Shown here: positions 5,196 through 37,924 of the stretch, one piece after another
Numbering within the stretch: position 1 is the first letter of the stretch
How the letters are laid out: the number at the start of each line of letters is the position of its first letter
Made by a program: the position numbers and the translations under genes
The notes under the pieces: model-generated
Databases searched by the model: none
The model's input: only the letters and a program-made list of their open reading frames with translations
What the model was told of the DNA's origin: nothing
Source: Myxococcales bacterium
GTDB taxonomy: Bacteria > Myxococcota_A > Bradymonadia > Bradymonadales > Bradymonadaceae
Direction: 5' to 3'
Length of the DNA stretch: 64,000 nucleotides
Assembly (NCBI GenBank): GCA_007120035.1
Contig: SKON01000193.1
Span: forward strand, 1-64,000

Positions 5196-6221
5196 ATGAC
5201 CGCACAACAACAGAAGTCGTCAGGTGAAGAGAAGGCCGAGGTGCTGACCGGAGACGAGGAGATGGCGCTGGACGCCGAGAGTCTGGACGGCGCCAGCGAG
5301 CTCTTTGGAGACTTGAGCCTGCCCATGATGCGGGGGTCCAACCTGAACCTGCCAGCCAACGCCGATCCGCTGACGGCGTATCTGGCCCGGTTGAACTACA
5401 TCGAGCCCCTGCCGGCCGACGAGCAGCAGGCTCTGGCCGAGCGGTATGTGAACGACGGCGATCGAAACGCCGGCAAGATGCTGATCCTGACCAACCTGCG
5501 GTTGGTGGTGAAGCTGGCCCGGGAGTACCAGCGGCGGTGGACGAACCTCCTGGATCTGATCCAGGAGGGCAACGTGGGCCTGGCCGAGGCGGTGACCCGG
5601 TACGATCCCTATCGTGGGGTGAAGTTTACCAGCTACGCCCAGTACTGGATCCGGGCGATGATCCTGAACTACCTGATGAATCACCTCCATCCGGTGAAGA
5701 TCGGGAGCTCCCGGGCGGGGCGTAAGCTCTTCTACAACCTCAAGAAGGCCCGACGGGAGCTGATGAGGCAGGGGCACGCCAACCCGACGCCGGCGTTGAT
5801 CGCCGACTACCTGGACGTGGACGAGAAAGAGGTGGTGCGGGTGGCAGCGCAGCTCGACGCGCCGCCGGTGTATCTCGACGCCCAGGCCCCGGGGCATGAG
5901 AAGACGACGATCGGGGAGCTGATGCAGTCCGAGAGTATCGATCCCGAGGAGGCGGCCTCCGATCTGGATCTGGCGACCCGGTTGCGGCAGACCATCGACG
6001 CCTTCACCGAGGAGATCGACGACGATCGGGAGCTGGCGATCTGGACGGAGCGGATGATCGCCGAGGATCCGAAGAGCCTGGTGGATCTCGGGGAGGAGTG
6101 GGGGGTGTCCAAGGAGAGAATCCGGCAGGTGGAGGTCCAGATCCGAGAGGACTTCCGGCGGTATCTGATCAGCGAGCTGGGGGAGGAGGTGAAGATGGAC
6201 TTCTTGGAGCGAATGACCTGA
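5196..6221 (+). CDS. rpoH: RpoH-type alternative sigma factor (sigma-32 family)
   Basis: Directs RNA polymerase to alternative promoters. After an acidic N-terminal extension of about 55 residues come region 1.2, region 2 (NLRLVVKLARE, LLDLIQEGNVGLAEAV, FTSYAQYWIRAMI) and an RpoH-box-like motif GRKLFYNLKKARREL, which separates RpoH-type from RpoD-type factors. Region 4 ends with the helix-turn-helix GVSKERIRQVE. The length is 341 residues against about 285 for E. coli RpoH. ATG 5196 has a GGGGG ribosome site eight bases upstream. The 180-base leader shows no clear promoter to me. Myxobacteria carry several RpoH-like factors, so the heat-shock role is likely but not certain. Confidence 0.88.
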   Translation: MTAQQQKSSGEEKAEVLTGDEEMALDAESLDGASELFGDLSLPMMRGSNLNLPANADPLTAYLARLNYIEPLPADEQQALAERYVNDGDRNAGKMLILTNLRLVVKLAREYQRRWTNLLDLIQEGNVGLAEAVTRYDPYRGVKFTSYAQYWIRAMILNYLMNHLHPVKIGSSRAGRKLFYNLKKARRELMRQGHANPTPALIADYLDVDEKEVVRVAAQLDAPPVYLDAQAPGHEKTTIGELMQSESIDPEEAASDLDLATRLRQTIDAFTEEIDDDRELAIWTERMIAEDPKSLVDLGEEWGVSKERIRQVEVQIREDFRRYLISELGEEVKMDFLERMT

Positions 6222-7308: not shown

Positions 7309-7928
7309 CGTCGGAACATCACGTCGCCGAGGGAACGAGAAAACTCTCGGAAGGCCTCCAGGATCAGGGGCCACTCCAGGTAGAGATCGGTGCAGGCCAG
7401 GATGAAGGCCGCCAGGATCGGCACGGCGAACGGCAGGTACCCCCGCTCATCCTCTTCCATGGGCTGCATCATGTTGGATCGGGTGGCGGCGGTCATCACG
7501 ATGCCTTTGAAGAATCCACCGACGCGCTTCAGGAGGGTGCCCAGGTACCCATTCACCAGGGAGAGGGAGAGGGCCATGACCAGGCCTGCCAGGAGGCTGT
7601 AGAAGAAGATATGAAAGAGGGGGCTCGCGCCGAGGACAGCGCCGATCACGCCAAAGAGTTTGATGTCTCCTGCCCCCAGCCATCGGGGAATCATCAGGGG
7701 GATCCCCAGGAGGAGGACTACCAGGACGGTCAAGAATCCCCACAAGAGCCCGCTCCAGCCGAAGACAATGGTCTGAAGGACGAGTCCCACGGCGGCCGAA
7801 GGATAAGTGAGCTTGTTGTAGATCTTGCGGTGCTTCCAGTCCGTGATGGCGGCGGCGATCAGGACGCAGCCAAGGGGGGCCAGGAGGAGAAGCTGCCCCC
7901 AGAGGGCGATGTCGTCGAGCTTGTTCAT
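7305..7928 (-). CDS. Prepilin peptidase, A24 family (CpaA/TadV type)
   Basis: Inner-membrane aspartyl protease that would cleave the Flp-type prepilins encoded just upstream. The two catalytic aspartates are visible: Asp30 in ITDWKHRKIYN and Asp88 in GAGDIKLFG. Several hydrophobic segments span the 207 residues. It lacks the N-terminal methyltransferase domain of PilD, as expected for CpaA/TadV. There is a terminator between it and the pilin gene at 8062, so it probably has its own promoter or relies on read-through. It is coupled to the downstream oxidase gene by a 4-base overlap. No Tad ATPase or secretin is in the window. Confidence 0.9.
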   Translation of the reverse strand: MNKLDDIALWGQLLLLAPLGCVLIAAAITDWKHRKIYNKLTYPSAAVGLVLQTIVFGWSGLLWGFLTVLVVLLLGIPLMIPRWLGAGDIKLFGVIGAVLGASPLFHIFFYSLLAGLVMALSLSLVNGYLGTLLKRVGGFFKGIVMTAATRSNMMQPMEEDERGYLPFAVPILAAFILACTDLYLEWPLILEAFREFSRSLGDVMFRR

Positions 7929-32728: not shown

Positions 32729-35122
<2,394 letters not shown>

Positions 35123-37491: not shown

Positions 37492-37615
37492 ATAGGAGCG
37501 CTTACGCCGCAGGGCTTTCTGAATGTGTGTGCGCGCAGGATACGACAAATGCGATTTCGATCATCGGTGAAATGGATGTCTCCAGGGCCGGTGGTGTTCG
37601 GTGGAGGAATGGACG

Positions 37616-37924
37616 TTGACTAAGCAAAGCAAAAGCGAACGAGACGCGGCGGTATCCACGACCACCGAAGGGGAAGCCCAGGACGTGAGCACCACGTCTG
37701 ACGCCCTGACTCCTCGAGAAGAGAAGGTCTTGCGCATGGTGCATGGAATGAGTGAAGAAGACTCCCACCTCTTGCAGTTTGCCCTCGGGGCCGACGAAGA
37801 CACTCAGATGAAGCTGGCCCTGATCGAGGATCAGGTCCTGCGGTATCTCAAAGCGTCGGAGGCGACCGGAGAGGTCCGGATCTCGCCGGCGGAGCTTCTG
37901 TCGGCCTGGTTGGAAGACGAGTAA
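37616..37924 (+). CDS. Small protein resembling sigma-70 region 4 without its DNA-reading residues
   Basis: A 102-residue protein. Residues 31-41 (LTPREEKVLRM) are the hallmark that opens region 4 of RpoD-type sigma factors. The rest aligns by eye with region 4: GMSEEDSHLL over the usual G-I-x-D-H-T-L stretch, and LIEDQVLRYLK over the recognition helix Q-I-E-x-x-A-L-R-K-L. The arginines that normally contact the -35 box are replaced (T-Q-M-K-L-A instead of T-R-E-R-I-R). No regions 1-3 exist. TTG 37616 is preferred over GTG 37601 because GGAGG lies eight bases before it. It could bind the beta-flap of RNA polymerase or an anti-sigma factor; this is inference. Confidence 0.7.
   Translation: MTKQSKSERDAAVSTTTEGEAQDVSTTSDALTPREEKVLRMVHGMSEEDSHLLQFALGADEDTQMKLALIEDQVLRYLKASEATGEVRISPAELLSAWLEDE

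Follow-up and report, generated by a model that had tools for sequence, protein, structure and literature searches.

A family of small free-standing proteins related to sigma-70 region 4 that has lost the residues reading the -35 box

A sequence of 64,000 nt from a Myxococcales bacterium (assembly GCA_007120035.1, contig SKON01000193.1, positions 1 to 64,000; this whole stretch is called the window below) encodes, at 37616-37924 on the forward strand, a protein of 102 residues in an open frame that runs from a TTG start to a TAA stop. An original prediction made from the letters alone had described it as a mini-protein mimicking sigma-70 region 4, with LTPREEKVLRM at residues 31-41, and we find the frame, the coordinates and the motif all to be correct. 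Our comparisons indicate that the protein is a true homologue of region 4 and one member of a family present across the phylum. The reading that we favour, and to which we give an even chance of being right, is that it derives from RpoD region 4, stands alone, no longer reads promoters and instead binds the beta-flap of RNA polymerase, competing there with sigma region 4 (sigma-4) without binding DNA.

Relationship to sigma-70 region 4

Taken singly, the window protein resembles known models weakly. It had no match in Pfam, and against the region 4 model PF04545 the cut-off was not reached, one of 36 family members appearing at E 0.063; RpoD_Cterm of NCBIfam matched it at E 4.5e-4, far below the cut-off. 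A first search for relatives gathered small proteins from the window's bacterial family and class (alignment A1). RpoD_Cterm was matched singly by 21 of the 36 members (best E 4.6e-7), and a profile built from all 36 matched RpoD structures in the PDB at E 5e-12.

Whether the resemblance reaches past the 11-residue block had been set beforehand as a test, and it does. With the block removed, the profile matched RpoD region 4 in all 58 RpoD-like frames, 44 of them at E <0.01 and the best at 1.5e-7, and hhalign gave E 2.9e-9 against the same region. When three more residues were taken out besides the block, 22 RpoD frames still had E <0.01. Among unrelated frames the best reached only E 0.017 with the block-less profile, and it contains a stretch copied from the mini gene itself. 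The similarity to RpoD spans about 55 residues, and the window protein aligns without a gap to sigma-70 from L551 to about residue 600. Since the block-less profile still matches RpoD region 4, sequence comparison shows that the homology over these residues is real and reflects descent; chance resemblance is ruled out by these profile tests together with the conservation described below. Region 2, which recognises the -10 element and binds core polymerase, is missing: within the 102 residues only the region-4 part found a match.

As a separate observation, a 46-bp piece of the mini gene (window 37802-37847, 45 of 46 positions identical) recurs elsewhere in the same genome, on contig C307 at 7336-7381 (L039:2337-2382). 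It lies in reverse orientation inside an unrelated gene for 870 residues, where it adds, in frame, about 13 residues that six homologues lack. It could have arisen as a short templated insertion, or the assembly may be at fault.

To see what has been kept, we compared each position, in sigma-70 numbering, between 73 family members and 41 RpoD sequences. Eight residues of RpoD region 4 (C-terminus TIGR02393; PF04545) are retained nearly throughout: L551 (67/73), E555 (72/73), E556 (73/73), R560 (73/73), M561 (67/73), G564 (72/73), L573 (70/73) and E591 (72/73); R562 is kept in 55 of the 73 and is V in the window protein. The DNA contacts fare differently. R554 remains in 4/73, R584 in 23/73, R588 in 5/73 and Q589 in 4/73, and E585 is not among the eight commonest residues at its position, while in the 41 RpoD sequences neither the base-reading residues nor R554 nor F580 vary. 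At 584, 585, 588 and 589 the window protein reads Q, M, A and L, and so does not carry the helix-turn-helix (HTH) with R584, E585, R588 and Q589 that recognises the -35 box. The core of this motif is also altered: V576 is mostly replaced by A, R or K, F580 by N, S, D or H, and V582 by E or D. This comparison places the loss of the -35-reading residues in the family as a whole and shows that the HTH is degenerate too. The loss of arginines noted in the original prediction thus extends to the 73 members, but R34 of the window protein, equivalent to the backbone-contacting R554, is present (it belongs to one of the four members with R here), and what has gone includes the HTH core and not just surface arginines. 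Unlike RpoD, then, the mini-protein is free-standing, has no region 2 or 3, is without the -35-reading residues and the HTH core, has gained a Thr-rich tail, falls below the Pfam and NCBIfam cut-offs and sits on a separate branch of the tree.

Along the window protein, residues 1-30 (37616-37705, forward strand, as for all parts of the gene) form a Thr/Ser-rich tail that is predicted to be disordered (pLDDT, the predicted local distance difference test, about 45-52); T15 is nearly invariant in alignment A3 of relatives, and many members have runs of Thr. Residues 31-44 (37706-37747), LTPREEKVLRMVHG, correspond to sigma-70 551-564, helix H2, by residue comparison and by a predicted helix at 33-43, and L31, E35, E36, R40, M41 and G44 are kept across the family. 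The first HTH helix (H3) and the turn, 565-580 in sigma-70, are replaced in residues 45-60 (37748-37795), which are not predicted to be helical; V576, G577 and F580 are lost and L573 is kept as L53. Residues 61-84 (37796-37867), from position 581 on, are a predicted helix in place of the recognition helix H4, with the changes R584Q, E585M, R588A and Q589L. A last predicted helix, SPAELLSAWL at residues 91-100 (37886-37915), is placed like H5, a helix of sigma-70 that contacts the beta-flap; most other lineages read KxxIIxxLRxL here.

The AlphaFold2 models behind these helices are of low confidence. For the window protein (pLDDT 66; predicted template modelling score, pTM, 0.29) helices were predicted at 33-43, 61-84 and 91-100, and for the Myxococcus xanthus member (pLDDT 68.5, pTM 0.31) at 12-23, 27-37, 56-77 and 102-114, with a short one at 93-99. 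Set against sigma-4, they fall on H2, H4 and H5, and the M. xanthus model has a helix at H1 besides; H3, the first helix of the HTH, was predicted in neither.

Distribution, selection and gene start

The family is widespread. Counting small open frames, most of which were checked by reading the sequences, the mini-protein occurs in at least 41 of the 57 genomes of its class, and several of the genomes without it are incomplete drafts. A search of the phylum with profile A5 found 80 of 379 genomes reaching E 1e-17, 78 of them with mini-type frames; this is a lower bound, as scoring took in no more than 12 candidates of each genome, and raising the number to 150 brought out the M. xanthus copy. 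Altogether about 17 family-level groups of the phylum carry the protein, and the named organisms that have it include Lujinxingia vulgaris, Myxococcus (including M. xanthus, locus L156 5016-5360), Corallococcus, Pyxidicoccus and Hyalangium. The closest relatives are 50-55% identical to the window protein, and the ratio of nonsynonymous to synonymous substitution (dN/dS) in close pairs, about 0.03-0.22, indicates purifying selection. In a control set of 99 Desulfobacterota genomes nearly all matches lay in full-length sigma frames, with a few shorter ones (e.g. 67, 141 and 215 residues).

The start of the gene is conserved as well, as the original prediction had asked of it. A strong Shine-Dalgarno sequence, GGAGG at 37603-37607, stands 8 nt 5' of the TTG, and a purine-rich Shine-Dalgarno followed by TTG recurs in most relatives from the window's bacterial family; in other lineages the start at this position is GTG or ATG. 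The in-frame GTG at 37601 overlaps the GGAGG and is for that reason less probable as a start. A scan for promoters and terminators around the mini gene found none. Across 33 neighbourhoods, in which not all neighbours are annotated, the gene stands alone and its flanking genes vary among lineages; an operon partner was rejected on this ground.

In a tree of 84 short sequences, a branch with a Shimodaira-Hasegawa-like approximate likelihood-ratio (SH-aLRT) support of 99 separates 59 mini-proteins from 24 RpoD sequences and one protein of Patescibacteria; with 78 columns, the finer forks are not to be trusted. Because of this grouping, a single origin of the family is possible. Small proteins consisting of sigma-4 only were also seen sporadically in Patescibacteria (loci L214 and L115), and at least one of these, L214, which groups with RpoD, looks independent. 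A dead rpoD fragment is ruled out by the purifying selection, the conserved Shine-Dalgarno and start, and the branch apart from RpoD. An origin from phages or plasmids was likewise rejected: tblastn with the window protein searched 50,697 phage records and 72,556 plasmid records without a match, and the three matches in IMG/VR are sigma-like proteins whose region 4 is intact and which do not belong to the mini type. Matches of the family in Pfam, NCBIfam, PHROGs and PADLOC are weak and mostly to sigma factors. The family is previously unnamed, having no model in the releases of these four collections that we used, and a literature search, which covered open-access papers, found no paper on such a family.

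Candidate roles

A review of T4 transcription assigns the beta-flap contact to parts of sigma in and near H1, H2 and H5, and promoter reading to the HTH (PMC2988021); the contact of region 4 is with the flap tip (PMC6755090). The family retains the flap-contact helices (H2 and H5 in the window protein, H1 too in other lineages) and has lost the DNA-reading set. A flap-tip binder is the most economical reading for this reason, and of the two roles offered in the original prediction, occupation of the flap tip appears to fit the anatomy best. The mini-protein would hold the tip through H2 and H5, with H1 in other lineages, and would displace sigma-4 from it without reading DNA, with a presumed effect on transcription. 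The Thr/Ser-rich tail, the second feature shared by the family, may carry regulation: it is a plausible control site, possibly through the Ser/Thr kinases that are common in the phylum. A lone gene that is under purifying selection while its neighbours change would fit a regulator whose target is universal.

Several points weigh against flap binding. That the protein meets RNA polymerase at all is something we infer; the equivalence of the C-terminal helix to H5 is drawn from position and likeness; H1 is not evident in the window protein; and most members have H or Y in place of F563, which is linked to interactions of region 4. The confidence of the models is low, and Foldseek searches with them gave no significant sigma-4 match. 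On a fold unlike region 4, the second refuting ground named in the original prediction, these weak stand-alone models argue little either way, since isolated sigma-4 of E. coli is itself intrinsically disordered in water (PMC4236625).

Should the flap-binding model be right, a precedent exists in phage T4, whose late-transcription co-activator gp33, also small, occupies the site of sigma-4 on the beta-flap and does not read DNA. The likeness would be one of mode of action and not of descent: compared by description only, gp33 is a phage protein linking the polymerase to the sliding clamp, while the mini-protein is a chromosomal family of one phylum. AsiA of phage T4 and Rsd/AlgQ are also small proteins at the sigma-4/flap interface (PMC2988021, PMC6755090); they bind sigma-4, whereas the mini-protein is itself derived from it.

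There are rival readings. The protein might present itself as a region 4 to something that binds sigma-4, be it an anti-sigma factor, an activator touching sigma-4 or a stand-alone beta-flap paralogue, and so free or withhold RpoD as PhyR does for EcfG. Sigma mimicry of the PhyR/EcfG kind is an established mode of control, and the general stress response protein PhyR likewise uses a sigma-like domain for mimicry and not for promoter recognition; it combines a mimic of an extracytoplasmic function (ECF) sigma factor with a response regulator, and the mini-protein of 102 residues has no receiver domain. A stand-alone flap paralogue is indeed encoded in the same genome. Rsd/AlgQ, the one known cellular family of sigma-70 region-4 anti-sigma factors that was tested, is however absent: PF04353 found it in 0 of 55 genomes of the class and recovered the E. 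coli control. We therefore reject Rsd/AlgQ as the partner, and titration of an anti-sigma factor, the other role in the original prediction, is left without support for the Rsd type. Such a decoy role seems to us unlikely. We think it still less probable that the protein binds nucleic acid with a new specificity, its remodelled H4 and a basic C-terminus (RALRKKK in Myxococcus) touching DNA or RNA. The C-terminal end is basic in members from Myxococcaceae and K or R is common at position 586, but the HTH core and turn are lost throughout the family, H3 is not predicted in the low-confidence models, and the C-terminus of the window protein is acidic (AWLEDE).

Two further explanations are very improbable. 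The EEKVLRMxHG helix resembles the tip helix of the beta-flap (PEEKLLRAIFGE), so that the protein might imitate the flap and bind sigma region 4 as an anti-sigma factor; a weak second alignment to the flap part of a sigma-4/flap chimera in the PDB, and a likeness by eye to SPEEKLLRAIFGE in the RpoB of this genome, point this way. The likeness is nevertheless limited to about 10 residues, on which ground we rejected it, and in the profile search the RpoB chains miss E 1 while RpoD is matched at 5e-12 and remains significant even without the block. Even less credible is that the protein is half of a split sigma factor working with a separate sigma-2 protein. Region-4-only halves of split sigmas are known, as in SigO/RsoA of Bacillus subtilis, where sigma region 4 is likewise on a polypeptide of its own; unlike that pair, the mini-protein lacks the residues for reading the -35 box, and no conserved sigma-2 neighbour was seen in its neighbourhoods.

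The flap paralogue is an observation in its own right. It is a frame of 293 residues on contig C228 (L218:2419-3300, reverse strand), existing beside a full rpoB; the gene immediately upstream, in the same orientation, encodes a CobW-type GTPase. PF00562 matches it at positions 108-227 with E 2.5e-10, above the Pfam cut-off; over 100 residues it is 43% identical to the genome's own flap, and it has a flap-tip-like helix, SAEEKLLGSIFGE. Binding to sigma-4, or to a mimic of it, is what one would expect of a free flap, and this putative paralogue might work together with sigma-4 or the mini-protein, or against either. One may speculate, at long odds, that Myxococcota built a two-part decoy system from their own transcription machinery, with a free sigma-4 that does not read DNA and, in some genomes, a free beta-flap; these would bind RNA polymerase, sigma or each other and thereby set the strength of the sigma-4/flap contact.

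Genomic setting and significance

In the window the mini gene has a divergent Fe-ADH-type dehydrogenase gene on one side and, downstream, genes for a biotin carboxylase, a biotin carrier and a methylmalonyl-CoA mutase; the biotin carboxylase/methylmalonyl-CoA mutase neighbourhood is restricted to the window's bacterial family. The same genome encodes, on contigs C118 and C123 (L001 and L002), two full-length sigma factors of the RpoD type whose region 4 is intact, and most genomes of this bacterial family also have two. The window itself holds another sigma-70-type factor at 6027-6146 and in the surrounding frame of 386 residues, with regions 2 and 3 recognisable and region 4 just below the Pfam cut-off. 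At 32729-35122 a long open frame has an N-terminal lipoprotein-like signal, a long (NQ)n repeat and then repeated motifs of the GDxNGDGxxE type.

The family is broad, clearly selected and present in a genetic model organism, and the flap-binding hypothesis can be tested directly in M. xanthus. The contact between sigma-4 and the beta-flap is best known as the target of Rsd and of the phage proteins AsiA and gp33. If flap binding is true, a whole phylum, including this laboratory organism, has a chromosomal regulator at that contact, and the family would show a sigma-factor domain turned into a regulator that does not read DNA.
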